Assembly (NCBI GenBank): GCA_002894685.1
Contig: NCRC01000014.1
Coordinates: 1 to 64,000 of the forward strand
From: Salinivenus lutea
GTDB lineage: Bacteria > Bacteroidota > Rhodothermia > Rhodothermales > Salinibacteraceae
Direction of reading: 5' to 3'
DNA: 64,000 nt
Shown: positions 19,945 to 57,891 of the stretch, piece after piece
Numbering within the stretch: the first letter of the stretch is position 1
Layout of the letters: each line of letters begins with the position of its first letter
Made by a program: the position numbers and the translations under genes
Notes under the pieces: generated by a model
What the model was told of the DNA's origin: nothing
The model's database searches: none
Seen by the model: the letters and a program-made list of their open reading frames with translations, nothing else

Positions 19945-22900
19945 ATGTTTTTTACGCTTGTCGGACAGGAGGTCGCCCATCGCCTCCGCCAGCTTTCCAC
20001 GCACGTCTACTTCCTGATCTTCTTCGGGATTAGCTTTCTGCTCATGAGCGCGCTCGGCGGCGCGTTCAGTGACGCCAACGTCGTCATCGGGGGCATGGGG
20101 CCAAACACCCATGTCAACGGCCCCTACGCGCTTACCGTCTCCACCCTGTTCCTAAGCCTCCTGGGGCTGATTCTGACGGCGCCGTTTATGGGGCAGGCCG
20201 TGTATCGCGACTACGCCAGCGGCATCGATCCGCTCATCTTTACCACGCCCGTCTCGAAGGCGCAGTACCTGGGCAGTCGGTTTTTGGGCAGTGTGCTGGC
20301 CCACCTCTACCTGTACGCCGGGCTCACCGGCGGCCTCATGCTGGCGGCGGTGATGCCGTGGGTGGACCCGAGCCGGTTTGGCGACTTTTCCCTGGCGGCG
20401 TACCTGTGGCCGTACCTGGTCTTCGTCCTCCCGAACCTGCTGTGGATTGGGGGGCTGTTCGTGGCGCTCCCGGCCCTTACGCGCCGCATGCTGCCGAACT
20501 ACCTCGGCGGCGTGCTCCTGTTCATGGGGTACAACATCGCGGCCGTGCTCGTGGGCGGCGATGCGCTGGAGAATAGCACCCTCGCCTCTGTGGTGGACCC
20601 GTTCGGGTTCATCTCTACGCAGCAGCTCACGCGGTACTGGACCACCGCCGAGCAAAACGCCCAGCTCGTGCCGCTGGAGGGGATGATTCTGATGAACCGG
20701 GTGCTGTGGGTGGCCGTGGGGGGAGCGATCATTGGCGGACTCTACACCGCGTTCCGGTTTGCCCACCGGTCGGACGGCTCTTCGAATGGCACAGACGACA
20801 CGGACGACGCCTCCGCGTCGCTGGCCGAGGTGGCGCCCACCGCGCTCATCCAGGCCGTCGACCTGCCGCGAGTGGCGCTCTCGGAAAGCATCGGCATGCG
20901 CCTCCGGCAGTTTGGCGCCATCGTGCGGCGGTCGTTCTGGTACGTGGTGCGCGACGTGTACTTCTACGCCATCGTGGGGGCGAGCATCCTCTTCCTCGTC
21001 GTGGCGGCCTCGCAGGCGGGCCAGATATACGGCACGCCGGTGCAGCCGGTGACCTACCAGGTGCTCGGGCAACTGAGCAGCCAGTTCACGCTCTTCATGG
21101 TGATCCTCATCACGTTCTACGCCGGGCAGCTGGTGTGGCGCGAGCGGGACGTGTCCATGCAGCAGGTGCACGATGCCCTGCCGCTCCCGAGCAGCCTGAC
21201 CCTCGCCGCCAAGGGCGTGGCCCTGGGGCTCGTCTGTGCCGTGCTGATGCTCGTCGTGCTGGTCACCGGCATCGGCACGCAGCTCAGCTACGGGTTCACC
21301 GACATCGACCTCGGCCTCTACCTGACGGAGCTCTACGGCGTGCAGCTCGTCGACTACCTGCTTTACGCCGTGCTGGCGCTGACCGTACAGGCCGTCGTCA
21401 ACCACAAGTACCTCGGCCACTTTCTCGTGGTCGGGTTTTTTGTGGCGCTGCTCTTTAGCGGCCAGCTGGGGCTGGAGCACACGCTCTGGCGCTACGGCTC
21501 GGACCCCGGCATGCCGTATTCCGACATGAACGGCTACGGCCACTTCGTCGTCGGCTTCGGGTGGCACAAGGTGCTCTGGGCCGCCGTGGCGGTCCTCCTG
21601 GCCGTCCTGGCGCGGCTGGCGTGGGTGCGGGGCGAAGATACGACGGGGGCCGTCCGCCTCGCCCAGGCCCGTCGCCGACTGACGCCCGCCCTGCTCGGCA
21701 CCGCGGGCGGGGCCCTCGCCGTGGCGCTGGGGGCGGGCACCGTGATCTACGTGAACACGTCGGTGTGGAATACCGTCCGCAGCAGCGACGAGCAGGCGGC
21801 CCTGCAGGCCGAGTACGAAACCACCTACGGTCGCTACGCCGACACGCCCCAGCCCCGCATCGACGCGGCACGTCTGGACGTAGACCTCTACCCCGAGGAG
21901 CGGGCGGCCCGCCTCGCCGGCACCTACACGCTCGTCAACGACGGGGAGGCCCCAATCGACACGGCCTTTGTGGAGACCCCCGCCGATGTGCAGGTGGGTA
22001 CGCTTTCGTTTGGGCGGGACGCGCAGACGGTGCGCCACGACGAGACGCACGGCGTTCGCCTCGTGCAACTGGGCACGCCCCTCGCACCGGGCGACACGAC
22101 GACGCTTGCGTTTGCGACCTGGCAGCGCAACGACGGCTTTACCCACGACGGCGGACAGACGTCCATCGTCTACAACGGCACGTTTCTCAACAGCGGCGTG
22201 CTGCCCCACTTCGGCTACGACGACGGAAAGGAACTCAGCGATCGGTCGCAGCGCGAGACGTACGGCCTCGCCCCCAAGCCGCGCATGCAGTCGCGGGCCG
22301 ACACGACGGCTCGCATGCGCCCCTACGTGTCCCGCGACGCGACGTGGCTCGACTACACGGCCACTGTGAGCACGACCGCCGAGCAGACGCCCCTCGCCCC
22401 CGGCACGCGCGATTCCGTGTGGACCGCCGAGGGGCGCCGCCACGTCCGCTTCCAGACCACCGCGCCCACGCTGGGCTTCTTCTCCTTCCTCTCGGCCCGG
22501 TACGACACGCGACGCGCCACCTGGACGCCGCCCGCCGACACGCTGAACGGCGGCGAGGCGGTCGACCTCGAAATCCACCACCACCCCGCGCACACCTACA
22601 ACCTCGACCGCATGACCGATGCGATGGAGCGGTCGCTCACCTACTACACACGCCACTTTGGCGCGTATCAGAACGAGGAGATGCGCATCGCCGAGTTTCC
22701 CCGGTACGCCTCCTTTGCCCAGTCCTTCCTGGGCACCATCCCGTACTCCGAGAGCATCGGCTTTATCGCCCGGGTGGACCCCGAGACGGACATCGACTAT
22801 CCGTATTACATCACCGCGCACGAGGTGGCGCACCAGTGGTGGGCCCACCAGATCGTGAGCGGGCCGGTGTGGGGCGCGACGATGCTGGTCGAGTCGCTGG

Positions 22901-23619
22901 CGCAGTACAGCGCGCTTATGGTGATGGAGGAGACCTACGGACGCGAGGCCATGAAGCGGTTTTTGGAATACGAACTCGACAACTACCTGAGCGGTCGGAG
23001 CATGGAGTCCCGCGAGGAGCGCCCGCTGATGGACGCGGCCGCCGGGCAGCAGTACATCCACTACGAGAAGGGCTCGCTCGTGCTCTATGCGCTGAAGGAA
23101 TACCTGGGCGAGGACACGGTGAATCGTGTTCTGCGCCGGTTCCTCCGCGACCACCGCTACGAATCGCCGCCGTTCACCACCTCCGAGGCGCTCGTGGAAC
23201 GCTTCGAGGCCGCCGCGCCCGACTCGCTGGACGGCTTTGTCGGGGACCTCTTCCGCAAAATTACGCTCTACGACAACCGCGCCGTGGACGCCACCTATAC
23301 CGAGACGGACGACGGCCGCTACCGGGTCGACCTGACGGTGCGGGCCCGCAAGCAGCAGGCCGACAGCATCGGGGCCTCGCCCACGGAGAAGCCGATGGAC
23401 CTCCCGGTCGAGATTGGCGTCTTTGCTGAAACGGCCGACGTAACGGCCGACGGCCAGCGCACGCTCTACCGGAACAGGCACCGGGTGACCGACGGGGAGC
23501 AGACGATCACGGTAACGGTCGACGAGAAGCCGGCCCGCGCCGGGATCGACCCGTACACGCTGCTCATTGATCGCGAAACGGACGACAACCTCACGTCGGT
23601 GCAGCCCGCGACGGAGTAG
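19945..23619 (+). CDS. ABC-2 permease fused to an M1-type aminopeptidase domain
   Basis: 1224 residues in two functional parts. Residues 1 to about 620 form two blocks of six or so membrane helices each, separated by a polar stretch rich in D/S/T (about 270-290), like a tandem ABC-2 permease. After the last helix (about 585-610) comes an extracytoplasmic M1 gluzincin domain. Zinc site HEVAHQWW with H959, E960, H963 and the third ligand E983, spaced 19 residues after the HExxH motif. LVESLAQYSALMVME and HYEKGSLVLYALKEYLGED follow. Such fusions occur in Bacteroidota. The peptidase may process the exported substrate or be anchored by the permease. Operon with the ATPase upstream and an adhesin-like gene downstream. 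Confidence 0.88.
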   Translation: MFFTLVGQEVAHRLRQLSTHVYFLIFFGISFLLMSALGGAFSDANVVIGGMGPNTHVNGPYALTVSTLFLSLLGLILTAPFMGQAVYRDYASGIDPLIFTTPVSKAQYLGSRFLGSVLAHLYLYAGLTGGLMLAAVMPWVDPSRFGDFSLAAYLWPYLVFVLPNLLWIGGLFVALPALTRRMLPNYLGGVLLFMGYNIAAVLVGGDALENSTLASVVDPFGFISTQQLTRYWTTAEQNAQLVPLEGMILMNRVLWVAVGGAIIGGLYTAFRFAHRSDGSSNGTDDTDDASASLAEVAPTALIQAVDLPRVALSESIGMRLRQFGAIVRRSFWYVVRDVYFYAIVGASILFLVVAASQAGQIYGTPVQPVTYQVLGQLSSQFTLFMVILITFYAGQLVWRERDVSMQQVHDALPLPSSLTLAAKGVALGLVCAVLMLVVLVTGIGTQLSYGFTDIDLGLYLTELYGVQLVDYLLYAVLALTVQAVVNHKYLGHFLVVGFFVALLFSGQLGLEHTLWRYGSDPGMPYSDMNGYGHFVVGFGWHKVLWAAVAVLLAVLARLAWVRGEDTTGAVRLAQARRRLTPALLGTAGGALAVALGAGTVIYVNTSVWNTVRSSDEQAALQAEYETTYGRYADTPQPRIDAARLDVDLYPEERAARLAGTYTLVNDGEAPIDTAFVETPADVQVGTLSFGRDAQTVRHDETHGVRLVQLGTPLAPGDTTTLAFATWQRNDGFTHDGGQTSIVYNGTFLNSGVLPHFGYDDGKELSDRSQRETYGLAPKPRMQSRADTTARMRPYVSRDATWLDYTATVSTTAEQTPLAPGTRDSVWTAEGRRHVRFQTTAPTLGFFSFLSARYDTRRATWTPPADTLNGGEAVDLEIHHHPAHTYNLDRMTDAMERSLTYYTRHFGAYQNEEMRIAEFPRYASFAQSFLGTIPYSESIGFIARVDPETDIDYPYYITAHEVAHQWWAHQIVSGPVWGATMLVESLAQYSALMVMEETYGREAMKRFLEYELDNYLSGRSMESREERPLMDAAAGQQYIHYEKGSLVLYALKEYLGEDTVNRVLRRFLRDHRYESPPFTTSEALVERFEAAAPDSLDGFVGDLFRKITLYDNRAVDATYTETDDGRYRVDLTVRARKQQADSIGASPTEKPMDLPVEIGVFAETADVTADGQRTLYRNRHRVTDGEQTITVTVDEKPARAGIDPYTLLIDRETDDNLTSVQPATE

Positions 23620-45241: not shown

Positions 45242-45332
45242 CGTCGCTCCAGACTTGATCTGGAGCCTATCCATCCGACGGGGGGACCGCCTCGAAGCGA
45301 TGGATGGGCTCTGAATCAAGTTCAGAGCGACG
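45242..45332. repeat. REPIN-like paired-hairpin element
   Basis: Two 34-nt arms, 45242-45275 and 45299-45332, are inverted copies of one another with 27 of 34 positions matching. Each arm is also a hairpin: CTCCAGA-CTTGA-TCTGGAG on the left and CTCTGAA-TCAAG-TTCAGAG on the right. Six of the seven mismatches between arms fall in the small stems and keep both stems paired, so they are compensatory. The element lies between the 3' ends of two convergent genes, the usual place for REP elements. Confidence 0.65.
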
Positions 45333-45355: not shown

Positions 45356-46390
45356 CTAAGCGCGCTGCCGGGCCCGCTCCTCGGCCGAAACGAGGTCCGG
45401 ATCCTTCGGCGTGTGCATCGGGGCCGTGTCGGTGGGCGGCGCGAACTCGCCGACAAAGTCGATCTCCGTCTCTAGCCGGTAGCCCGTCTCGCGCTCGACA
45501 ACCGTCCGGACGTGGTCGATGAGGGCGCAAAGGTCGGCCGCGGTCGCGCCGCCCGCATTCACAAAGATGTTGGCGTGGCGGTGCGTTACCATCGCGCCTC
45601 CGATGCGGGTGCCCTTCAGGCCACAGTCGTCGATGAGACGGCCGGCCCCGATGCCTTCAATCTTCTTGAAGATCGATCCCGCACTCGGTTCCGTATCGAG
45701 CGGGGGGTGGCGCTCCGCCCGCCACTGCAGGTTGGCGTCCATGATCTCGCGGAGGCGCTCTTCGGGGGCCGCCTCAAGCTGGAACGTGGCGGCGAGGACC
45801 ACGTCCTCCCGGTCGTGCAGGACGGAATAGTCGTAGCCGAAGTTGAAGAAGTCAACCCCTACCGTTTTTCGTTCTCCTGTTTCCGTGAGAACGTCGGCCG
45901 AGTGGAGGACCTCTTCGATGAACATGGTTCGCTCCCGCTCGGGGGGCGGGGAGAGGAAGTGGAGGTTTTGCCAGAGGGCCCCGCCCACGGTGGACGGGAT
46001 GCCGACGTAGTGCTCCAGCCCCGAGAGGCCGGCGGACACGGCCTGCTCGATGAGGTCGGGATACATAATGGCGCCGCTTTCGGCCCAGAGGCGTCCGGTG
46101 CCGGCGTCGAGGCGGGTGTGGCGGGCCTGGTTGTGGATGACAAGCCCGCGCACGCCCCGATCGCCCACAATCACGTTGGCCCCCGTGCCGAGCAGGAACG
46201 CCGGCAGGTCGTGCTCGCGAACCACGCGGAGGACCTGTGCCAGCTCGTCGGCGGACCGCACGGCCACGTACCAGTCGGCTGCGCCCCCCACGCCGAAGGT
46301 CGTGAATGGGGCGAGGGGCACGTCTTGCTGGAGGGACGCCGCGTCGGTGGCGGCGTCGAGGGCGCGTCGGCTCGAGGGGGAAAGCGGCAT
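45356..46390 (-). CDS. murB: UDP-N-acetylenolpyruvoylglucosamine reductase
   Basis: FAD enzyme that reduces UDP-GlcNAc-enolpyruvate to UDP-MurNAc, 344 residues. LAPFTTFGVGGAADWYV and FLLGTGANVIVGDRGVRGLVI form the FAD domain. GLEHYVGIPSTVGGALWQNL and NFGYDYSVLHDR follow. The proton-donor Ser is in PSAGSIFKK, and THRHANIFVNAGGATAADL and LETEIDFVGEF complete the substrate domain. The presence of the Tyr loop indicates the type I (E. coli-like) form. The C-terminal 25 residues are an extension. It is convergent with the ADP-ribosylglycohydrolase. ATG at 46390. Confidence 0.95.
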   Translation of the reverse strand: MPLSPSSRRALDAATDAASLQQDVPLAPFTTFGVGGAADWYVAVRSADELAQVLRVVREHDLPAFLLGTGANVIVGDRGVRGLVIHNQARHTRLDAGTGRLWAESGAIMYPDLIEQAVSAGLSGLEHYVGIPSTVGGALWQNLHFLSPPPERERTMFIEEVLHSADVLTETGERKTVGVDFFNFGYDYSVLHDREDVVLAATFQLEAAPEERLREIMDANLQWRAERHPPLDTEPSAGSIFKKIEGIGAGRLIDDCGLKGTRIGGAMVTHRHANIFVNAGGATAADLCALIDHVRTVVERETGYRLETEIDFVGEFAPPTDTAPMHTPKDPDLVSAEERARQRA

Positions 46391-46686: not shown

Positions 46687-46715
46687 TTGACATAGGTGCA
46701 TCCCGTCTTTATCTA
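46687..46715 (+). promoter_or_regulatory. susC1 promoter
   Basis: TTGACA (46687-46692), 17-nt spacer, TATCTA (46710-46715). Fifteen of the bases in and around it, TTGACATAGG and GTCTTTATCTA, recur at the same spacing before susC2. It is a sigma70-like rather than a Bacteroides-type (TTG/TAnnTTTG) promoter. The implied leader is about 170 nt. Confidence 0.65.
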
Positions 46716-46852
46716 TGGTTTACGTGAGCTTTCGGCTATATTCTCGCGAGACTCGCTCGATCGGAAGAGACCGCAGGCAGAAACGTTGTGGCGGGGCTCG
46801 TCGATTCTTGGAGTGTGTTGCGTGCCTTTCTCGTCGATGCTCACAGAGAGAT

Positions 46853-46975
46853 CACCATTCGTCGTTCTACGATTTACAGTCCAGATTTAGTCATGAGGAG
46901 ATTGCTATCAACGGTTGCCTTGGGGCTTGCGCTCCTGTTGGCACCCAGTCTTGCGTGGGCCCAGCAGGGGACGGT
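46853..46975 (+). repeat. leader/signal-peptide repeat, copy 1
   Basis: 123 bp that match 52300-52422 at 121 positions. It covers the last 40 nt of the 5' leader and the first 83 nt of susC1, including the whole signal peptide. The two mismatches are C/T in the leader and a synonymous A/G in the signal peptide. Similarity drops immediately downstream. Confidence 0.85.
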
Positions 46976-49900
46976 GTCCGGAAGAGTCACTGAAGCATCG
47001 TCGGGGAATCCATTGCCGGGAGCCACTGTGCAAGTGGAAGGAGCGAATCTGGGATCGGCAGCGAACGCACAAGGCCGATTCGAAATTTCGGGCGTTCCGG
47101 CGGGGGAGCAAACCCTTCAAGTTTCGTTCGTCGGCTACCAGGAGGTTCAGCGTACGGTGAACGTTCCGGAAGGAGGCACTGTCCGGGCGAATTTTCAGCT
47201 TCAGCGTGAGGCGACCCAGCTTGATGAGGTTGTCAAGATTGGATACGGCGAGCGTGAGCGTGATGAGCTGACCGGGACAGTCTCCAGTGTAACCGCCGAA
47301 GATATTGAAGATGTGGCGTCGGTTGGGTCGCCGCAAGAGCTCCTCTCAGGGGCTTCAGGCGTTACCGTAACCAACACGTCGGGTCTCGCGGGACAGGCGA
47401 TTAGCGTGTCGGTTCGTGGGGTGTCGTCGCTCAACGGCGATAGCCAGCCGCTTTACGTGGTGGACGGTACGCCTGTGACGTCGGCTTCCACCGGTGGCGG
47501 ATTTGGCCAGGCAACCAATGCGCTGTCGACGATTAACTCGCAGGACATCCAGTCGATTGAGGTGCTGAAGGGCGCTGCCGCCACCGCCATCTACGGTTCG
47601 CGCGCAGCAAATGGGGTCGTTCTGATTGAGACGAAGCAAGGAAGCTCGGGGCGACGGACAGTCTCTGCGAGCTACCAGCTCGGAGGCGTCTCGTCCACGT
47701 CGGACTTCGATGACGTGATTGTGAACGGCCAGGAGTGGTCGGAACTTCACCAGGATGCCACCAGAGGATTTTACAATACGTGCAACATCCCAGGGCTCTG
47801 TGGTCCAACCACTGGTCTGTCATTTGAAGAATTTGAGCAGGCAGGCCTGGGAGGGGGAGCGTACGAAGAGCTCGTTCTTGGTACGCCGTCTCCATACCCG
47901 GATTCCGCCAACGCCACGACCTTTCCCTGGCTTGAAGAGGCCCAGCAGACGGGCATCACGCAGCAGGCCAACGTCTCGGTCAGTGGGGGCGACGAAGACA
48001 CGGATTACTTCATTAGCGGGACGTTCTCTAAGGATGAAAGCTTCGTTCGAAACAATCAGTTCAATCGCTTCAGCGGCCGAATCAACGTGACGCAGGATGC
48101 GACCGACTGGTTGCAAGTTGGAACGAACACCTCGGTGACACGGACGGAGAACTTTCAGGCGTCGTCCGACAACAACGTCTCCGGAGTGTTGACCTCCGCG
48201 GCTCTTATCCCGCCGATTCTTCCAATCCGGAATGACGACGGCTCCTTTAACTTCAACAACCCCTGGAATATTGCGGCTAATTCGATTGGGGAAGCCGAAG
48301 TTAACAGCAAAAACATTCGAAACTGGCGGATCCTGTCGACAACATTCCTGGAAGCGCAGCCGCTTGAGTCGCTGACACTCCGGGCGGAAGGCGGAATTGA
48401 TGCCTTGATTGTGGATGACTTTACTCGGTACGACCGTCGTACCACCGATGGCGCCCCGACAGGGTTCGGCGGACAGGTCTACGAGGATGAGCGTCGCTAC
48501 AGCATCCGCGGTACGGCCACGTACAGCAACACGTTTGCGGGCCGTCACGACGTCAACGCCGTTGCGGGAGCTAGCTTCGAGGATTCGCGCCGGAATCAGG
48601 TCTTTGCTGAAGCTCAGAATTTTCCGTCCAATCAGTTCCAGAACGTGGCTTCGGGCGCTTCGCCCCTTACAACGAGTGCTGGTGTGGTACGGAAGGACGG
48701 GCTTGCCTCCTTCTTTACCAGGGCTACATACACCCTGGATGGGAAGTACACCATTGAGGGAAGTTTTCGACGGGATGGATCCTCACGATTCGGAGAGGAC
48801 AATCGGTGGGGGAACTTCGGATCGGCGTCCCTCGCTTACCAAATTGGTCAGGAGAGTTTCCTTCAGCCCTACGACTGGCTTTCGAATCTGAAGCTCCGTG
48901 GGTCCATCGGATGGGTTGGGAATCGGGACATCGGAGGGTTCTTTCCGCAGCTGGGTCTTGCCTCTGCTGGAAATAATTACAATGAGGCCTCTGGTGTTGC
49001 TCCGGCACAGCTTCCCAATCCTGACCTGAAGTGGGAGTCGACGCGAACCCTTGAAGCCGGGGTCGATTTCGGTGCATTCAACGACCGCATCTTCCTGTCG
49101 AGCACGTATTTCCGGAGCCTGACGAACGATCTCATCACGGATCGACAGCTTCCATTTAATTCCGGATACGGGAGCATCACCCAGAACCGTGGCGAGCTGC
49201 TCAACGAAGGGGTTGAGGCACAGCTCGAGACGCAGAACATCGTGACGGAAGACTTCCAGTGGACGACGACCTTCACGGCAACCTGGAAGCGGAATGAGGT
49301 TCAGAGCCTGCCGGGTGGAGATCCCATCCTCAGTGGTCCACAGCGTGCCATCGAGGGAGAAGAACTCTCGTGGTACATGCTGGAGTATCGCGGTGTGAAT
49401 CCGGACAACGGAAAGCCTCTCTGGACCGGCACGGATGGACAGCCGACGAGTAATCCCTCCGGAGACGCCGAAAGCATCCAGGGCGGCATCCTTCCGAACT
49501 GGAACGGATCGGTCGCCACCACGGCGAATTACAAGGGCTTTGATCTGCGAGCCCGAATGACGTTCAAGGCCGGATACAGCATCTACAACGATACGAAGAG
49601 CTTCCTGATGACCTACGCGAATTTCGGGTTGCATGAGGATGCACTGGATCGCTGGCAGGAGCCCGGGGACCAGACAGATGTGCCGCGGGCGGTCTTCGGA
49701 GACGCGGCGGACAATAGTACCCGCGAGTCGACACGCTTCCTTGAGAGCGGGGATTATCTCCGTCTCCAGAACGTGACCCTCGGCTACACGCTACCGCAGG
49801 ACCTCACGCAGTCATTCGGTGTGAATAGCCTGCGCGTGTACTTCCAGGGAACCAATCTCCTGACCTTCAAGGAGACGAGTATTGGCGATCCCGAAGGGAG

Positions 49901-49997
49901 CACGGGCGGTGCGACAAGCGCACTGGACCGTGGGGTGCTCTTCTTCACGCCGCCGCAGGCACGCTCCTTCACCGGAGGGGTAGAGCTCCAACTCTAA
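46893..49997 (+). CDS. SusC/RagA-family TonB-dependent receptor 1
   Basis: 1034 residues, outer-membrane beta-barrel for TonB-driven uptake of oligosaccharides or peptides. Signal peptide ends at AWAQ (about residue 23). The carboxypeptidase-regulatory-like domain is at about 24-110 (GRVTEASSGNPLPGATVQVEG). A TonB-box-like segment and the plug follow (LDEVVKIGYGERERDELTGTV; YVVDGTPV; SIEVLKGAAATAIYGSRAANGVVLIETK). The rest is a 22-strand type barrel ending in an aromatic-poor strand, FTGGVELQL. The ATG at 46893 begins the repeat shared with susC2. Its SusD partner lies 110 bp downstream after a hairpin. Confidence 0.95.
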   Translation: MRRLLSTVALGLALLLAPSLAWAQQGTVSGRVTEASSGNPLPGATVQVEGANLGSAANAQGRFEISGVPAGEQTLQVSFVGYQEVQRTVNVPEGGTVRANFQLQREATQLDEVVKIGYGERERDELTGTVSSVTAEDIEDVASVGSPQELLSGASGVTVTNTSGLAGQAISVSVRGVSSLNGDSQPLYVVDGTPVTSASTGGGFGQATNALSTINSQDIQSIEVLKGAAATAIYGSRAANGVVLIETKQGSSGRRTVSASYQLGGVSSTSDFDDVIVNGQEWSELHQDATRGFYNTCNIPGLCGPTTGLSFEEFEQAGLGGGAYEELVLGTPSPYPDSANATTFPWLEEAQQTGITQQANVSVSGGDEDTDYFISGTFSKDESFVRNNQFNRFSGRINVTQDATDWLQVGTNTSVTRTENFQASSDNNVSGVLTSAALIPPILPIRNDDGSFNFNNPWNIAANSIGEAEVNSKNIRNWRILSTTFLEAQPLESLTLRAEGGIDALIVDDFTRYDRRTTDGAPTGFGGQVYEDERRYSIRGTATYSNTFAGRHDVNAVAGASFEDSRRNQVFAEAQNFPSNQFQNVASGASPLTTSAGVVRKDGLASFFTRATYTLDGKYTIEGSFRRDGSSRFGEDNRWGNFGSASLAYQIGQESFLQPYDWLSNLKLRGSIGWVGNRDIGGFFPQLGLASAGNNYNEASGVAPAQLPNPDLKWESTRTLEAGVDFGAFNDRIFLSSTYFRSLTNDLITDRQLPFNSGYGSITQNRGELLNEGVEAQLETQNIVTEDFQWTTTFTATWKRNEVQSLPGGDPILSGPQRAIEGEELSWYMLEYRGVNPDNGKPLWTGTDGQPTSNPSGDAESIQGGILPNWNGSVATTANYKGFDLRARMTFKAGYSIYNDTKSFLMTYANFGLHEDALDRWQEPGDQTDVPRAVFGDAADNSTRESTRFLESGDYLRLQNVTLGYTLPQDLTQSFGVNSLRVYFQGTNLLTFKETSIGDPEGSTGGATSALDRGVLFFTPPQARSFTGGVELQL

Positions 49998-50021
49998 CGG
50001 TTGAAGCACCTCTCAACTCAG

Positions 50022-50066
50022 ACAGGCACGGGCCCGCCATAGGGTGGGCCCGGGGCTCTGTCTTTT
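50022..50066 (+). terminator. hairpin between susC1 and susD1
   Basis: CGGGCCCGCC pairs with GGTGGGCCCG around the loop ATAG, with outer ACAG/CTGT pairing, and is followed by TCTTTT. It may be an attenuating terminator that lowers susD relative to susC, or a stabilising 3' structure. Confidence 0.55.
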
Positions 50067-50107
50067 GCGTGCCGATTGTTCTACGACTATCACAGAACGG
50101 TATTATT

Positions 50108-51559
50108 ATGGGTTACTCTACAGTTAAATCCTTTCTCGTTGCGCTTGCTGCTGTCGGTCTCCTTGGCCTGACGGCTTGCGACCAGACGGTTGATAGGCAG
50201 CCGGAGCAAGAAATCCCGATTGATCAGATTTTTCAGGATGTTTCTGGGGCTCAGTCGGCCCTAACAGGAGCGTATGATGGGCTCCAATCCGATGGGGTGT
50301 ACGGTGGGTTTCCGGTGATGGCGGGAGATTTCACCGCTGATGTTGCAAACTTCAGTGGATCCTTTACGACGTGGCAGCAGGCCCAGGCCTTCAATGTGTC
50401 GTCGACTCACGGACCCACAGAGAACCTTTGGCAAGATCACTACAACGTGATCAATCGGGTGAACCTGATCATTGATAACACGCCGGATGTTGAAGGAATC
50501 ACGCAGGAAGAGGTCGACGATATTGTTGGCCAGGCAAAGTTCATCCGAGCTCTTGCGTACTTTAACCTTGTCCGCTGGTTTGCCCAACCCTACGATCCAG
50601 AAGCAGGAACCAATGATCAACCGGGCGTAATTCTTCAGACAACCGGTGTTGCATCGACTGATCCTGAATTCAATAAGCCTCGTGCCTCAGTCGAAGAGAT
50701 CTACACGCAGATTCGGAATGATCTCACCGACGCGATTAGTCGGCTCGAGATTAAGGGCGCGCGCAAGAGAGCTGGACAATCAGTTGCAAAAGCGCTCCTA
50801 GCGAAAGTAGACCTTTATCAGGGACAGTGGGACGATGCTGCCGAGCGTGCCGGAGAGGTTATTTCACAGGATCCGTTTAGCCTTTCGTCGTCCATTACGG
50901 AGCCGTACCGGAATGAGCTTAGCACTGAGATTGTCTTCGAGGTTTCCTTTAGTGCTATCGACAATTCAGGGACTAACGCCTTCATGAGTTCCTTCTATCT
51001 CCCAGGAGATCTTGGGGGACGGGGCGATCTCAATCCGCTGGGTCAATTTACCACCTCCGCAGAGTCCGGCGACCTGAGGGCAGACCCCTCGACCGCTGGT
51101 CCAACGGAGTCTGGAGAGATCAACGGCAATGGCCTCCTGTATTCATATGACGGAAACCTCTGGACCAACAAGTGGACCCAGGATTCCTTTGGGGACGATA
51201 TGCCAGTTCTACGCGTCGCTGAGATGTATCTCATTCGTGCTGAGGGGCTTGCACGCGGATCGGGGTCGGCTGCCGACGCACGTGAGGACGTGAACGCGAT
51301 TCGTAATCGCGCAGGCCTGGACGATGTATCGAGCTCCCTATCGGGCCAGGACCTCATCGATGAGATCATCACCCAACGCCGGTACGAGCTGGCGTTTGAG
51401 GGGGATCGTCGTCACGATCTCCAGCGGCTCGGCCGCACCATTAACAGTGGTACGGGGACACTGCAACCAGGAGACTCCCAGCGGATTCTCCCGATTCCGA
51501 ACCGGGCCATCCAGGTGAACGACGCCCTTGATCAGTCGTCGCAGAACCCTGGCTACTAA
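50108..51559 (+). CDS. SusD/RagB-family lipoprotein 1
   Basis: 483 residues. Lipoprotein signal ending LGLTAC (Cys at about 24). It has the SusD layout: an N-terminal helical TPR-like part (IDQIFQDVSGAQSALTGAYDGL; DIVGQAKFIRALAYFNLVRWFAQPY), and a C-terminal part with DDMPVLRVAEMYLIRAEGLAR and IDEIITQRRYELAFEGDRRHDLQRLGR. These are the RagB/SusD family blocks. It caps the SusC barrel on the cell surface and binds substrate, which is unknown here. The ATG at 50108 precedes the signal sequence. Confidence 0.93.
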   Translation: MGYSTVKSFLVALAAVGLLGLTACDQTVDRQPEQEIPIDQIFQDVSGAQSALTGAYDGLQSDGVYGGFPVMAGDFTADVANFSGSFTTWQQAQAFNVSSTHGPTENLWQDHYNVINRVNLIIDNTPDVEGITQEEVDDIVGQAKFIRALAYFNLVRWFAQPYDPEAGTNDQPGVILQTTGVASTDPEFNKPRASVEEIYTQIRNDLTDAISRLEIKGARKRAGQSVAKALLAKVDLYQGQWDDAAERAGEVISQDPFSLSSSITEPYRNELSTEIVFEVSFSAIDNSGTNAFMSSFYLPGDLGGRGDLNPLGQFTTSAESGDLRADPSTAGPTESGEINGNGLLYSYDGNLWTNKWTQDSFGDDMPVLRVAEMYLIRAEGLARGSGSAADAREDVNAIRNRAGLDDVSSSLSGQDLIDEIITQRRYELAFEGDRRHDLQRLGRTINSGTGTLQPGDSQRILPIPNRAIQVNDALDQSSQNPGY

Positions 51560-51593
51560 CCGCCATGGTTCTTACGACAGACGATGAATTCCG

Positions 51594-51636
51594 GCCGTGC
51601 CCGCTCTCCGCGAGGAGGAGCGGGCACGGCTTTTTT
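51594..51636 (+). terminator. terminator after susD1
   Basis: Perfect 13-bp stem GCCGTGCCCGCTC/GAGCGGGCACGGC with an 11-nt loop, followed by TTTTTT. A textbook intrinsic terminator that ends the first Sus operon. Confidence 0.9.
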
Positions 51637-52134
51637 AGTGAGGGACACCTACCAACCACAATTACCCCCACCCGTGGGCTTAGCGGCAATTTTCGGATTG
51701 GACGACTGAGGAGATCTTCGGGAAAGAGCAGGAAGCAGAAAAAAGGACGGGTTGTACGAGGAATTCCTGCCCATGGTGGGCCGAATGCTTCCACGTAGCA
51801 CTCTTCCCGAAAGGCTCGTAGGAGAGAAACATGATCATGGGGCAGTTGGGCCGAATGGAGGCGTAAAGGAAGAGATGTTACACAAACTTCTTTGGGTGGC
51901 TGCCCTGTGTACGCGGTCGACACCGTGGTCTACTTGGAAGAAGATTTAAAAAGTGCAGGGCAACGAGGGAGTCCGGAGAGTTATCAACTTTCAAAAGCGG
52001 CGTTTTACCCTGCTTTATCAGTCAGACTAAAAATTTTGGACGAAGACGATTCCGGAAAGATGTAATGCAAAACACCTGAAGGACAGGTAGCCCCCAAGGG
52101 CTTTTAGCACGGAGGCAATACCACACAGGACAAT
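51637..52134. other. intergenic region between the two Sus operons
   Basis: About 500 bp, AT-richer than the average of the window, with A-rich runs (GCAGAAAAAAGGACGG, GACTAAAAATTTTGG). No frame with credible coding character on either strand, and no similarity to the region before susC1 apart from the promoter and leader that follow. I see nothing else in it. Confidence 0.5.
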
Positions 52135-52163
52135 TTGACATAGGCACAGGCTGTCTTTATCTA
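52135..52163 (+). promoter_or_regulatory. susC2 promoter
   Basis: TTGACA (52135-52140), 17-nt spacer, TATCTA (52158-52163). It has the same elements and the same distance to the start codon (about 175 nt) as the susC1 promoter. Confidence 0.65.
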
Positions 52164-52299
52164 CGCATAATGTGAGTGCTCGCTTCCCACTCCAGTGACA
52201 TGCTTCGTCACAGAGGCGGGTCACTGGCGGGAGTGCTGTGATGGGAGTCGTCTGGTTCTAGATCAATTGCCCATCTCCCGTCGATGCTCACGACCGAAG

Positions 52300-52422
52300 C
52301 ACCATTCGTCGTTCTACGATTTATAGTCCAGATTTAGTCATGAGGAGATTGCTATCAACGGTTGCCTTGGGGCTTGCGCTCCTGTTGGCGCCCAGTCTTG
52401 CGTGGGCCCAGCAGGGGACGGT
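52300..52422 (+). repeat. leader/signal-peptide repeat, copy 2
   Basis: 123 bp matching 46853-46975 at 121 positions. A further 12 bp (GTCGATGCTCAC) are shared slightly upstream of both copies. It spans the end of the leader and the susC2 signal peptide. Confidence 0.85.
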
Positions 52423-55240
52423 CGCCGGCACAGTCATAGACGATGCAACGGGAAATAGCCTGCCCGGAGCAAACGTTCAGATTGCAGGAACGGAACTTGG
52501 GTCCGCAACCAACCCAAACGGACAATTTTCGATTTCGGGTGTGCCGGCTGGAGAGCAGACCATTCGCGTCACGTTTGTCGGGTACGAGCCGACCGAGCGG
52601 ACGGTGAACGTGCAGGAAGGAGGCACGACCCGGGTCCGAATTCGACTTGCCTCCGACGCGCAGGCCCTCGATGAGGTCGTTGTGACAGGGGTTGGCCAGC
52701 AACAGACCCGTGGAGAAACGAATGTGTCTGTCTCGAGCATTGATGCTGAGGAGCTGACTGAGACAGCAGAGTACGAAAACGTGACCGATCTCTTGCAGGG
52801 GCGGACGACTGGAGTCACAATTTCCCGCTCCTCCGGAAATGTTGGATCGGGGCTCCGATTCGACGTGCGGGGAGGTGTGAGCCTCAATAGTGATGGTCAG
52901 CCGCTCATTTTCGTAGACGGCACGCGCATCAACCAGGACCCTGCGACTGGATTTAATGTCGGAGGTCAGGGAACCGGCTCCCCCTTGGCCGATCTCGATC
53001 CGAGCAATATCGCGTCGATCAACGTCTTGAAAGGCCCGGCGGCCACCTCTTTGTACGGGACTGACGGCACCGACGGCGTGGTGCTGATCGAAACGAAAAG
53101 CGGTCGGCAGGGCCAGGACCTGGAGGTGAGCTATCAGGGAACCCTGGGCATCGCTACGAAGCAGGCAGGGTACAACGATGACATTTATCCCACGGCGGAT
53201 CGGCTCGATGCCATCCACCGCGACGGCACCATTCAGGGACACCGTGTATCCATGAGCGGTGCTACTGAGAATACCAATTATCTCGTTTCGTATTCTCACC
53301 GCGACACGGAGAGCATTTTCCCGACTGGGAATGGCCAGCGGAATAATCTAAACGCAAACGTTGAGTATCGCCCAAACGAGTCGTTTACGCTTAGCAGTCG
53401 CTCCACGCTTGCGTTCAACTATTACTCCCGGCCGCAGGCGGACAATAACATCTTCGGTGTGCTCGGGGCCCTTGCCCTTGACGCACCCTTTGGGGCGTTC
53501 ACGGAGCGAGACAGCTCCGCGTTCTTTGCCATCGATGACCAGCAGCGTGTCCGGAAATTCCAGCAGTCGGTGCAGCTCTCGTACAGTCCCGATGCCATTT
53601 CGGGGTTGACCCTTCGTGCGCAAGGAGGAGCTGACATCAGTGCCCGGCGCAATGATCAGACCTGGCCTGCCCAGTACGAAGATATTTATATATCGTCCGG
53701 GGGAGAGCGTAATGCTCTCGATTCAGACCGCCGCCGCTTCAACGCGGATCTGACGGCGACCTACAACTACGATCTGTCGCCGGACGTAAGCGGAACGACG
53801 ACGGCTGGAACTCAGCTCTTTACGGAGTCGGATCGGTTCGTGAGCGCGACAGCGTCGCAAATTGGGACCGATCTCATTACGGACATCGGAGCTGGGACGC
53901 AGCTCGATGTCATTAGCGAAGGGCTCTCGAATGAACGTAGCGCCGGAATTATTGGGCGTCAGCAATTTGAATTCCTTGACCGGTACTCCGTTGAGTTTTC
54001 CGTCCGTCGCGACTGGTCCACCCGACTTGTTGCGGGTGAAGCGGGCTCCTTTAAGGAGTGGTATCCGGCGGCACGCGCCTCGGCGCAGATCGGGAATCTG
54101 GACTTTATGCCCGACGCAGTCAGTAGCTTGAACGTGCGTGCGTCCTGGGGGCAATCGGGGTCCCTTCCCAGTCTGGTTGATGGCGAGTTGGTTCGACTCA
54201 ACGGTCAGTCCAGCGGATTTGGGACTGGCGCGACCATTGGAAACGTCGGAAATCCGGATCTTGGCCTGGAGCGGGTTAATGAGGTCGAAGGCGGATTTGA
54301 CCTGGGAATCAACGAGCGTTACTCCCTGTCCTTTACATACTACCGCCAAAGCACGGAAAATTCGATCGTGAACTTCCAGGCGGCTCCGTCAACCGGATTT
54401 GGAAATCAAACAGTCCCCCGGAACGTCGGAGAAATCTTTGCTCAGGGTGTTGAGACTTCTCTGGACGTGACGGCTTTCCAGACCGAGCGGCACTCGCTTA
54501 GCTTCAATGCGAACTATAGCTTCCGAGATCGGGAAGTGAGAGAGCTCGGAGGAGAGAGTATCTTCGGTGTTTTCCAGCGTAACGTGATTCGCGAAGACCT
54601 CGCGCCCTTCTCCTTCGTTGGACGAGAGGTTCTTGGGGCCCGGTTCGCCGACAACGGCGAATACCTTGGCCCTGAGCTGAGCGACGAAGAGGTTGAGCTC
54701 GGGAATCCGGTTGCCGATCACTTCGGCGGGTTTGGATTCACAGCGACGGTCTTCGAGGACCTCCGAATTAATGCGCAGGCCGAGTACCAGCTTGGGAATC
54801 AGACCTACGCGAGTACGGCTCGATTCCTGACGCTGATTGGAGCGAATGAGCGCCGAAATGCACTTCAGGAGGAACTCTCTGGCCTCGATCCGGGGACCGA
54901 TCAGTACCGGCAGGTTGCCAATGATCTGGCGAGAACGAACCCGGGCGCTGGTACCGGAGAAGTCGATAACTTTCTGCAGGACGCCGACTTCCTGAAGCTC
55001 CGTTCGCTTGGTGTTCGCTACAACGCGTCGGACCTGATTTCGTCCGTCACGGGGACTGATCAGCTGAGAAGCTTCACGCTTGGTTTCTCGGCTTCGAATC
55101 TCTTCACGATCACGCCCTATGATCTCGGTCCCGATCCGGAGGTGAACTTTGACGGATCGCGAGGTATTACGCGCGGGCAGGACTTCCTGACTCTGCAGAC
55201 GCCCAGGGAGTATACATTCACTCTCGAAGTTGGAATCTAA
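52340..55240 (+). CDS. SusC/RagA-family TonB-dependent receptor 2
   Basis: 966 residues. Its signal peptide is identical to that of receptor 1 (first 23 residues). The regulatory-like domain (GTVIDDATGNSLPGANVQIAG), TonB box and plug (LDEVVVTGVGQQQTRGETNVSVSS), FVDGTRINQDP and SINVLKGPAATSLYGTDGTDGVVLIETK follow. The barrel diverges strongly from receptor 1, so the two should take different substrates. It ends in FTLEVGI, with a typical terminal aromatic pattern. The ATG at 52340 lies within the repeat shared with susC1. SusD2 follows 100 bp downstream after a hairpin. Confidence 0.95.
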   Translation: MRRLLSTVALGLALLLAPSLAWAQQGTVAGTVIDDATGNSLPGANVQIAGTELGSATNPNGQFSISGVPAGEQTIRVTFVGYEPTERTVNVQEGGTTRVRIRLASDAQALDEVVVTGVGQQQTRGETNVSVSSIDAEELTETAEYENVTDLLQGRTTGVTISRSSGNVGSGLRFDVRGGVSLNSDGQPLIFVDGTRINQDPATGFNVGGQGTGSPLADLDPSNIASINVLKGPAATSLYGTDGTDGVVLIETKSGRQGQDLEVSYQGTLGIATKQAGYNDDIYPTADRLDAIHRDGTIQGHRVSMSGATENTNYLVSYSHRDTESIFPTGNGQRNNLNANVEYRPNESFTLSSRSTLAFNYYSRPQADNNIFGVLGALALDAPFGAFTERDSSAFFAIDDQQRVRKFQQSVQLSYSPDAISGLTLRAQGGADISARRNDQTWPAQYEDIYISSGGERNALDSDRRRFNADLTATYNYDLSPDVSGTTTAGTQLFTESDRFVSATASQIGTDLITDIGAGTQLDVISEGLSNERSAGIIGRQQFEFLDRYSVEFSVRRDWSTRLVAGEAGSFKEWYPAARASAQIGNLDFMPDAVSSLNVRASWGQSGSLPSLVDGELVRLNGQSSGFGTGATIGNVGNPDLGLERVNEVEGGFDLGINERYSLSFTYYRQSTENSIVNFQAAPSTGFGNQTVPRNVGEIFAQGVETSLDVTAFQTERHSLSFNANYSFRDREVRELGGESIFGVFQRNVIREDLAPFSFVGREVLGARFADNGEYLGPELSDEEVELGNPVADHFGGFGFTATVFEDLRINAQAEYQLGNQTYASTARFLTLIGANERRNALQEELSGLDPGTDQYRQVANDLARTNPGAGTGEVDNFLQDADFLKLRSLGVRYNASDLISSVTGTDQLRSFTLGFSASNLFTITPYDLGPDPEVNFDGSRGITRGQDFLTLQTPREYTFTLEVGI

Positions 55241-55339: not shown

Positions 55340-56914
55340 ATGAGTAGTTATCAAACTACACTCAGAAGACTTTCGGCACTCGGTGCCATCTTGCTTTTCG
55401 CCGTGTCATTTACGGCCTGCGATTCCTTTGTCTCGAACGTAGACCAGCCCAAAGACGCTGCCGGGAGCGAGCAGTTTAGCGATCCTGCAGAAGCTGAATT
55501 TCTCATTACTGGAGTTCAGGCTCAGTGGGCGGACACCCACTCGGAGGTGACGGTGTTGGCCGATGGATTGTCCGACGAGTTTCGCTTTGGCATCAACGGG
55601 GATGCGACCTTCCCGACGTTTGCCCAACTTGATGCGGGTCTCATTGCGGACGACAACAACAGCATTACGGGGGCCCTGAATGACCTTCAGGAGTATCGGT
55701 ACCTGGCCGACGACCTGCTCCGGCGTGTTGAGGAGGATGAGGAGTTTGACCTCTCCGATCCTTCTGCCTCGGCCTCTGAAGAGGAGGTCCGTCTTGCGGC
55801 CAATCTGCATGGAGCAAATGCCCGGTTCTACCTCGCCACGTACTTCGGTCACCCGGACGATCCGCGCCGCGGAGGGGCGACGATCGACACGTCCGAATTC
55901 ATTCCGTCCCCCCAGCTGTACCAGCAGGCAGAGGACAAATACGCAAACGCGCTGGCACAGGCTGAGGCCCTGGATGATGGTCTCCGCCAGCGACAAATTC
56001 AATCGGCGCGGGCCCGCGCGGCGCTCTACGCTGGCACCCATGATTTTGAAGACTCCGGTGGGTTTCAGGGGGATGAAGCCCTTCAGGCCGCTGCACAGTA
56101 CGCGCAGGAAGGCCTTAACCAAGGAGAATCCTGGGATGTGGCCTACGACCTGAATACTCCCAATAACTACCATACAGATGCGGGGGTTGGCCGTCTGCAG
56201 CTCGCCGTACAGGACGGAAACCTCAACCAGCTTGCCACGCGCTCGCCGAATCCGTCGCAGAGCTACCGCGTAGCGGATGAGGGCACCGGCGACCTGGAGG
56301 CGCGAAGCCACATTGAGACGGTGGCCAACAACCCGGGTGAATTGCAACGAATCCCACTCACAATCATCAACCCAGGGGGGACGACCTTGGGAGGGTTCGG
56401 GGCGCTTCCGACCAATCTGGAGAACCTGGATTTGGGAGACGGTGCCTTCTCTGCCGTTTATGATGCCTTTGAGCTCAACGGTGAGCCGAATGTAGTTCCC
56501 GGGTCGGGCGGCGAGTCCGCGTTTATCGAGTGGGGCCAGGGCAAGTGGGAGGAGCGAACGAGCATGTCGTTCATCAGCTGGCAGGAGCTCTTCCTCATCC
56601 GCGCCGAACTCGAGTTGCGGGGGTACGATGCTGGTGAAGAATCTGCTCTCGAACTTGTGAATGCCGTTCGGGCAAGCTACGGTGTGGACGAAGACGAAGA
56701 CCCGTTTCTCGAGCCACTCAGTCAAGGCGAACTTGACTTGGAGCGTCTTGCGGTTGAGCGCGACCGTACGCTGTTTGCGACTGGAAATCGTCTGCCGGAC
56801 CAGCGGCGGATGGATGTGGTCGAGTGGCACCTCAAGGATCAGGTGGGTGGCCAGCAGACCGCGCAGTGGTTGCAGCTTACGCAGGCTGAAACCGAGCCGA
56901 ACCCGAACTTCTAG
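55340..56914 (+). CDS. SusD/RagB-family lipoprotein 2
   Basis: 524 residues. Lipoprotein signal with Cys at about 29 (AVSFTAC). The N-terminal helical part has AEFLITGVQAQWADTHSEVTVLADGL and EEEVRLAANLHGANARFYLATYFG. The C-terminal part has MSFISWQELFLIRAELELRGYD, LELVNAVRASYG and DLERLAVERDRTLFATGNRLPDQRR, which correspond to the SusD C-terminal blocks. The sequence differs greatly from SusD1, matching the divergence between receptors. It is the partner of receptor 2. ATG at 55340. Confidence 0.9.
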   Translation: MSSYQTTLRRLSALGAILLFAVSFTACDSFVSNVDQPKDAAGSEQFSDPAEAEFLITGVQAQWADTHSEVTVLADGLSDEFRFGINGDATFPTFAQLDAGLIADDNNSITGALNDLQEYRYLADDLLRRVEEDEEFDLSDPSASASEEEVRLAANLHGANARFYLATYFGHPDDPRRGGATIDTSEFIPSPQLYQQAEDKYANALAQAEALDDGLRQRQIQSARARAALYAGTHDFEDSGGFQGDEALQAAAQYAQEGLNQGESWDVAYDLNTPNNYHTDAGVGRLQLAVQDGNLNQLATRSPNPSQSYRVADEGTGDLEARSHIETVANNPGELQRIPLTIINPGGTTLGGFGALPTNLENLDLGDGAFSAVYDAFELNGEPNVVPGSGGESAFIEWGQGKWEERTSMSFISWQELFLIRAELELRGYDAGEESALELVNAVRASYGVDEDEDPFLEPLSQGELDLERLAVERDRTLFATGNRLPDQRRMDVVEWHLKDQVGGQQTAQWLQLTQAETEPNPNF

Positions 56915-56945
56915 GGATTCGGTTTGATCATTCTACCGGTAATTG

Positions 56946-56985
56946 CAGGGTTGTCCCCGAACCTTCGGGGGCAACCCTGTTTTTA
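56946..56985 (+). terminator. terminator after susD2
   Basis: CAGGGTTGTCCCCGAA pairs with TTCGGGGGCAACCCTG around a short CC loop, with one bulge, followed by TTTTTATT. Strong intrinsic terminator closing the second Sus operon. Confidence 0.88.
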
Positions 56986-57082
56986 TTGTAGCGCTTTGTC
57001 CGTGGCTATTGGGCGTCTACTGAGCCTTCAGGCTCATTTGAGGAGCGAACACGAAACGTAGTTGCATAACGCAAACAGCTGT

Positions 57083-57547
57083 ATGGGCACCTATCTTGCA
57101 CGACGCTTCTTTTTTCTGCTTGTATTTGGTGCGCTTCTGAGTGGGGGGTGTGATTTTGGGAATGGAGCAGAAAATCAAGCCCGTGACCGCCTGGAACGCG
57201 CACGAGAGCAGTGGCAGGAACAGGACATTCAGGACTATCGATTTGTGTATCGTCAGCAACGTGGAGAGGTCATCGTCGACACCGCCGAGGTTTTCGTCCG
57301 GGGAGGTCAAGTCGACTCTATTCATACGGAACCGGAGGTTTCGGAAGATGAACTGCTTGTAGGGACGATTGAATCGTTCTTTGACCTTATTGAGGCGCGA
57401 ATTGGGGAGGACGAGAGCCAGTTTGGGGCAAACTTCGACCAGGAGAAAGGATTTCCGATCGAATATAATGCTGGCTTTCAGGGGGATCGACGAAACCAGG
57501 ACATCATTACCGTTTCGGTCGAGGGTCAGGATGGGGGGAGTTCATGA
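57083..57547 (+). CDS. small lipoprotein (DUF6174-like)
   Basis: 154 residues. Lipoprotein signal FFFLLVFGALLSGGC (Cys at about 23). The mature part begins with a charged helix (NQARDRLERAREQWQEQDIQDYRFVY), then RGEVIVDTAEVFVRGGQVDSI and FFDLIEARIGEDESQ. The W-x-x-x-x-I-x-D-Y-x-F/Y-x-Y pattern and the strands after it resemble DUF6174, a family of unknown role. It is encoded in the AT-richer island. The stop overlaps the start of the MGMT gene in ATGATGA, so translation may be coupled. An upstream TTG (57062) is possible but less likely. Confidence 0.7.
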   Translation: MGTYLARRFFFLLVFGALLSGGCDFGNGAENQARDRLERAREQWQEQDIQDYRFVYRQQRGEVIVDTAEVFVRGGQVDSIHTEPEVSEDELLVGTIESFFDLIEARIGEDESQFGANFDQEKGFPIEYNAGFQGDRRNQDIITVSVEGQDGGSS

Positions 57548-57891
57548 TGAGTCGTGAGGAACCGGAGGCTTCAGACTCTTTCTATGAGCGCGTCTGGGAG
57601 GTCGTGGCGGAGATTCCGCCCGGCCGCGTGACCACCTACGGCGACATTGCGGAGTACCTGGGCCGGCGCGGGGCGGCCCGCACCGTGGGCTGGGCACTGA
57701 ATGAGGCCGTGGGCTCCGACCTGCCGTGCCACCGGGTGGTGAATCGGAACGGGCAGTTGACGGGCAAGCGCTACTTCGAAACCCCGCACGTCATGGAGGA
57801 GCGGCTGCGCAGCGAGGGCGTTGCGTTTGCGGCAGAGGACCGGGTGGATCTGGAAGCGCACCGGTGGGTCCCGTCCGAGGAGCTTTCGTAG
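57544..57891 (+). CDS. MGMT-domain alkyltransferase-like protein
   Basis: 115 residues: only the C-terminal DNA-binding and active-site domain of O6-alkylguanine-DNA alkyltransferase. FYERVWEVVAEIPPGRVTTYGDIAEYLG, AARTVGWALNEA and LPCHRVVNRNGQLTG. The acceptor Cys (C62 in PCHRV) is present, whereas ATL proteins usually have Trp there. The N-terminal domain of full Ogt/Ada proteins is missing. It may be a small active methyltransferase or a damage-binding ATL-like protein. It overlaps the lipoprotein gene by 4 bp, and base composition changes about 45 bp into the gene. Confidence 0.85.
   Translation: MMSREEPEASDSFYERVWEVVAEIPPGRVTTYGDIAEYLGRRGAARTVGWALNEAVGSDLPCHRVVNRNGQLTGKRYFETPHVMEERLRSEGVAFAAEDRVDLEAHRWVPSEELS

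Follow-up and report, generated by a model that had tools for sequence, protein, structure and literature searches.

Two neighbouring genes for outer membrane receptors of the SusC/RagA family, in the DNA considered here, begin with almost the same 5' end and continue into strongly divergent mature proteins, which raises the question of how their beginnings came to be so alike. The DNA is a stretch of 64,000 nucleotides from Salinivenus lutea (contig NCRC01000014.1, positions 1 to 64,000; hereafter the window), part of a 3.55-Mb genome of the Salinibacteraceae that is close to Salinivenus iranica CB7. The genes are susC1 (46893-49997, + strand, 1034 amino acids, receptor type A) and susC2 (52340-55240, + strand, 966 amino acids, receptor type B). 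We call "header" the promoter core, start region and signal peptide, and "receptor" the plug and barrel; the answer that we regard as likely is a concerted evolution of a locus-specific header over receptor cassettes that are exchanged behind it.

A common 5' end before two divergent receptors

The shared part is a block of 123 bp (copy A at 46853-46975, copy B at 52300-52422, both + strand) that runs from -40 to +83 around the ATG start codons at 46893 and 52340 and covers the start region and signal peptide. The copies are identical at 121 of 123 positions and differ by C46877/T52324, 16 nt 5' of the ATG, and by A46943/G52390, a synonymous change at the third position of codon 17. Counted in 40-nt bins from -40 to +80, identity is 39/40, 40/40 and 39/40; outside the block it is about 50-60% on the immediate upstream side and 60-72% on the downstream side, and a tract of 123 nt with no more than two mismatches has a probability of 1e-19 at a match rate of 66%. 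Beyond residue 115 the mature receptors are 28% identical. The earlier note had described both the two-mismatch blocks and the strong divergence of the mature proteins, and both are confirmed.

The promoter core TTGACA-N17-TATCTA, also said to be kept, is exact in both copies (46687-46715 and 52135-52163, + strand) and is largely common to both S. iranica copies, the second of which has TATATA as its -10 element. A longer pattern, TTGACATAGG...TATCTA, has only two sites in the 3.55-Mb genome, which are the two promoter cores. The leaders are indeed both close to 175 nt (leader A, 46716-46892, + strand, 177 nt; leader B, 52164-52339, + strand, 176 nt), but the near identity claimed for them holds for the last 42 nt or so and not further upstream, where 61 of 131 sites differ (53% identity); their likeness is restricted to the promoter core, the GTCGATGCTCAC motif and these last nucleotides.

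Two simpler accounts were tried and rejected. The leader could have been a translated N-terminal extension, as the frame of copy A is open upstream, but in copy B a TAG interrupts the frame and no start codon follows, and the leader indels of the first S. iranica copy contradict the idea as well. An assembly artefact was rejected because S. iranica CB7 agrees in contig order, has both cassettes in the same tandem arrangement and carries private substitutions.

Header and receptor discordance at the murB-side locus

We compared the murB region all against all between the window genome, S. iranica and related genomes labelled G2, G3, G4, G5, G6, G10 and G11, with one genome per species (the stretch examined in G6 excludes murB). 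The SusC/SusD cassette arrays vary by species. With the receptor types named A, B, a, a', b and x, the order is A then B in the window genome and in S. iranica, A then x in G4, A in G5, a then b in G3, B then a in G10, a' alone in G2 and B1 then B2 in G6; two tandem header-bearing cassettes occur in the window genome, S. iranica, G3 and G4. To the right of the array, G2, G3, G5, G6 and G10 have a conserved SusC beginning MFRK. Between G2 and G10, MurB and the MFRK SusC are 96-97% identical in amino acids, against 52% for the cassette SusC and 41% for SusD.

Over 14 genes, header identity tracks lineage and receptor identity tracks type. The two cassettes of the window (ownA and ownB) have headers 98% and receptors 28% identical, whereas ownA and its ortholog in G4 are 59% identical in the header and 84% in the receptor, and ownB and the B2 gene of G6 are 53% and 83% identical. 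Likewise, types a and b of G3 share 90% of the header and 26% of the receptor, and the type-a genes of G3 and G2 share 96% and 50%. The discordance was also seen in approximately unbiased (AU) tests (iraA and iraB being the S. iranica counterparts). When run on the block they rejected {ownA, iraA, G4A, G5A} and {all type B} as clades, with losses of log-likelihood (lnL) of 50 and 64, and when run on the mature protein they rejected {ownA, ownB, iraA, iraB} and {G3a, G3b, G10a, G2a, G6B2}, with losses of 1448 and 399. In these alignments header and receptor have different trees; the block is short, and its tree leaves some internal branches open.

Type B stands behind three headers, MRRLL in the window, MKRLIP in G6 B2 and MNRW in G6 B1 and G10. 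The MKRLIP header precedes receptor types a, a', b and B, and a more diverged form of it precedes A and x. In the genomes examined at locus level the shared header sequence is restricted to the murB-side locus, and beyond the genus, within the family, searches with the header found weak matches only.

The clearest single case is that of the syntenic type-a genes of G10 and G2, which agree at 93-95% of positions in the promoter window and between -60 and about +120, and at 76-83% in the mid-leader. Beyond +120 the rest of the N-terminal extension (NTE) is 70-81% identical, and further on, past +300, most of the plug and barrel has 41-70%. From this retained 5' end and the diverged plug and barrel we conclude that the receptor was replaced behind its header. 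In G3, a decayed solo header lies just left of the MFRK SusC (22670-22984 of the joined stretch L141+L168), with a promoter remnant, ACG in place of the ATG, stop codons and no receptor gene following, as would be expected if cassettes are lost from the array.

The earlier note had offered, as one of three readings, a recombination point for swapping receptor genes behind a fixed expression site. On an evolutionary time scale this is the best supported of the three, from the lineage-following headers at a syntenic locus; an expression site with a single active promoter is not supported because each cassette has its own promoter.

Probable past homogenisation and constraint

In a four-way alignment of copies A and B of the window genome with A' and B' of S. 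iranica, sites of the ortholog type (A=A', B=B') number 46 of 126 in the leader and 81 of 262 in the NTE, against 0 of 122 in the block. The block has five variable sites, each private to one copy, and sites of the concerted type (A=B, A'=B') are also 0 of 122. Its A-B distance is 2 and 3 of 122 within the two species, the same as the distance between the species (2 and 3), while in the leader the A-B distance is about 0.76 against 0.06-0.12 between species. Since the two block distances are equal, these counts point to one homogenisation of the stretch from -42 to +82 (about 125 bp) roughly when S. iranica and the window species split, with no later conversion needed. Gene conversion keeping the 5' ends the same, as the earlier note had it, is thus retained as a past event near that split but not as an ongoing process.

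The block changes between the two species at about one quarter of the leader rate. Scaled by this constraint, about 20 A-B differences are expected in the block, or about 11 under the stronger constraint of the Salinibacter group, and 2-3 are seen (our own arithmetic on a short alignment). Constraint alone is insufficient for the likeness of the two blocks.

The header is nevertheless constrained. In the Salinibacter group the positions from -33 to +21 hardly vary among five genes whose receptors are unrelated, and the promoter core is conserved, but not the roughly 120 nt between it and the start region. In the true orthologs of type a in G3 and G10, synonymous identity is 84% over codons 1-27 against 48-51% elsewhere (p=3e-4). 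The MFRK SusC served as control and has no such excess over codons 1-27 (67% for G3/G10 and 62% for G3/G2, against 64-65%), although the closer pair G6/G10 has some (p=0.013). Codons 2-6 of both receptors of the window (AGG AGA TTG CTA TCA; 46893-46910 in copy A) each make up no more than about 1% of the codons of their amino acid in native genes of high GC content at third codon positions (GC3), and the start region has 40-42% GC in a window of 66%. A start region of low GC and rare codons would fit selection for an open translation start; low GC by itself is not special here, because some other SusC starts of the same genome are also below average.

A model of receptor exchange and its alternatives

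Under the reading that we prefer, the two genes would head SusC/SusD cassettes in a hypervariable array adjoining murB, and the header, from about -42 to +82 together with a TTGACA-type promoter core and a long leader, would be specific to locus and lineage. Each cassette would supply a receptor and its lid, and the locus a functional promoter with start region and signal peptide. Homologous recombination, the probable agent, could act in the shared header and NTE to substitute a new plug-barrel and SusD for the old, and the same recombination, or short-tract gene conversion, could copy the header between neighbouring cassettes, such that headers would evolve in concert and receptors diversify, with help from purifying selection, which would act on the promoter core and on the start region. 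Efficient translation and export may be the role for which the header is selected, and nutrient or phage pressure may drive receptor turnover. Several points weigh against this reading. The exchange is inferred between species only, because one genome per species was compared; the header is under nucleotide constraint, and conservation could account for some of the A/B likeness; and the G3 pair of types a and b in the Salinibacter group has no recent conversion, only shared ancestry and constraint.

One alternative is a purely selective account. If the header were a translation and export element read at the nucleotide level, old paralogs could match without any conversion, and the near invariance from -33 to +21 and of the promoter core in Salinibacter, the synonymous excess and the uniformly rare codons 2-6 speak for this. 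True orthologs, however, have headers that are just 52-61% identical to those of the window (G4A and G5A; G6B2 and G10B), so that the header is not that constrained at this depth, and the block has none of the several ortholog-type sites that would be expected; we consider selection alone quite unlikely. A related possibility, unlikely but to our mind worth stating, is that the promoter core and the positions from -33 to +21 form a required control element read by a locus-specific trans-acting factor, which captured receptors must acquire, with recombination installing the resident header on incoming SusCD cassettes; if that were true the array would be a receptor-capture system. A recent local duplication of one cassette, with later divergence of the mature part, would account for the tandem arrangement in one orientation and for homologous leaders and promoters, but we give it hardly any credence: mature proteins at 28% and leaders at 53% do not go with a block at 98%, each of the two receptors is closer to orthologs from other species, and the sharp edges at -42 and +82 refute duplication as sole cause.

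The remaining readings give the shared 5' end an active regulatory or switching function. The earlier note had suggested that the leader is a regulatory RNA controlling many Sus genes together. In favour of a structured element of this kind (riboswitch-like or a small RNA target) are the long leader of conserved length and the folding of leader B, which is better than that of its shuffles (z -2.40); leader A, by contrast, has z +0.41, the two share no covarying structure (covariation term -1.69 for A1 and +1.24 for A2), no credible match was found in Rfam, and the mid-leader is the least conserved part. The 123-bp block has two copies and no third in the 3.55-Mb genome, and the remaining TIGR04056 genes start with other 5' sequences; with the block found at no further place and missing from the other SusC genes, there is no support for a genome-wide Sus regulator, and co-regulation by a leader RNA seems to us improbable. 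Absence of further copies and of a shared fold, and a single recent duplication as the origin of the block, had been named beforehand as outcomes that would tell against the note's readings; the former were found and the regulatory RNA fails on them, but the duplication was not, the block edges being too sharp. Finally, a site-specific recombinase might shuffle receptors behind the header within a population, and divergent SusC genes with common 5' ends at one locus are what it would leave. This we hold to be very improbable, as the block copies are direct repeats, with 0 inverted pairs of at least 40 nt, the order is unchanged in S. iranica, and none of the 12 tyrosine integrase (PF00589) matches of the genome lies on the contig of the window (serine recombinases and remote integrases were not searched).

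Relation to known systems

By analogy, the nearest known system is the rag locus, and receptor swapping of this pattern is already known in other Bacteroidota. The ragAB locus of Porphyromonas gingivalis has four divergent RagA types in which the signal peptide and the CarbopepD_reg_2 NTE are highly conserved while barrel and lid diverge, and exchange between strains or species has been proposed (PMC11817032). The murB-side locus is similar in having divergent SusCD alleles at one chromosomal place (G2 and G10) with signal peptide and NTE conserved across alleles (types a of G10 and G2). It differs from that single locus with four allele types in being a tandem array of variable copy number, in which several cassettes per genome can share a header including the promoter core and the start region. 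In Bacteroides fragilis, a SusC/SusD shufflon works by DNA inversion through the site-specific invertase Tsr0667 (PMC4747536). Both systems diversify SusC/SusD clusters at one place by DNA rearrangement, but the locus of the window has direct repeats, no tyrosine integrase match on its contig and a promoter of its own for each cassette, and its changes are seen between species. The Mycoplasma vsp/vsa surface lipoproteins have a conserved 5' region and signal peptide before divergent mature proteins and are phase-variable by site-specific inversion. They resemble the present case in this arrangement of a conserved 5' end before divergent surface proteins, but the proteins are different and there is no evidence of switching at the window locus. 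Within the same family, flexible genomic islands of Salinibacter ruber carry SusC/RagA TonB receptors in variable regions, and pressure from phage and transport has been discussed (PMC6060240); murB is not mentioned in that text, and the passages considered describe neither a shared 5' header nor a discordance of header and receptor.

The locus offers a concrete case, with defined place and edges and an explicit discordance of header and receptor, and it would take the rag-type pattern beyond a pathogen, into free-living halophiles and into tandem arrangements. In this way a bacterium could go on exchanging surface receptors, which may act as gates for nutrients and as docking sites for phages, and leave its signals for expression and export in place. 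The case also calls for caution, as two SusC genes may have a common 5' end without belonging to a common regulon.

Genes of the two cassettes and their flanks

By their domain matches susC1 and susC2 are SusC/RagA TonB-linked outer membrane proteins: both match PF13715 and PF07715, and they score 732 and 434.5 bits with TIGR04056 (cut-off 368.25 bits). The layout of SusC1 is a signal peptide, an NTE at residues 28-114, a plug at 124-242 and the barrel, and its gene has orthologs in S. iranica and two metagenome-assembled genomes; type-B orthologs of susC2 occur in G6 and G10. The partner of susC1 is susD1 (50069-51559, + strand; PF07980 and PF14322), with 73% amino acid identity to the S. iranica copy and a lipoprotein start probably at about 50108. 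At the SusD position behind susC2 lies a lipoprotein gene (55340-56914, + strand) that matched no Pfam or NCBIfam family and has orthologs 3' of the type-B susC in S. iranica, G6 and G10; a terminator-like hairpin of 16 pairs with a T tail (56945-56980, + strand) closes this unit. The conserved left flank of the array is murB (45356-46390, - strand; PF02873 and PF01565), syntenic in S. iranica, G2, G3, G4, G5, G10 and G11.

The cassettes have a low GC3 (susC1 0.66, susD1 0.57, susC2 0.65, susC2 partner 0.67, against 0.86-0.89 for the flanking murB and glycoside hydrolase (GH) genes), as have header-bearing cassettes of G3, G10 and G6, with the MNRW-type B of G10 at 0.87. In a plasmid origin search with susC1 all matches were below 60% identity, the best at about 36%. 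Compared with S. iranica, susC1 and susD1 are mosaic: the ends are about 93% identical, most of the middle of susC1 and susD1 have 60-80%, and counted per 60-nt bin 47780-49220 in the middle of susC1 and 50000-51320, with most of susD1, are about 45-80% identical, with a few bins higher, which suggests further exchange inside the cassette. The SusD1 of S. iranica is 82% identical to the copy of G5, against 73% to that of the window.

Directly behind the type-a SusD genes, at L141:11473-12282 and L143:6372-7184, lie genes whose products are probably lipoproteins of the cell surface, with ASH and BT_3987-like domains, and a cassette may thus encode three surface proteins. The stretch 45254-45320, located between murB and the next gene, resembles an inverted repeat; it is poorly conserved in S. 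iranica, and an unrelated microRNA model matches it on both strands, far under the cut-off of the model. Alongside the type-B cassette, here as in S. iranica and G6, is a lipoprotein-like DUF6174 protein of 161 amino acids (57062-57544 in the window). It is followed at 57544-57888 by a small protein with a 6-O-methylguanine DNA methyltransferase DNA-binding domain (alkyltransferase-like), and similar open reading frames also lie beside the receptor array in G2 and G6, with a weak match in G3.

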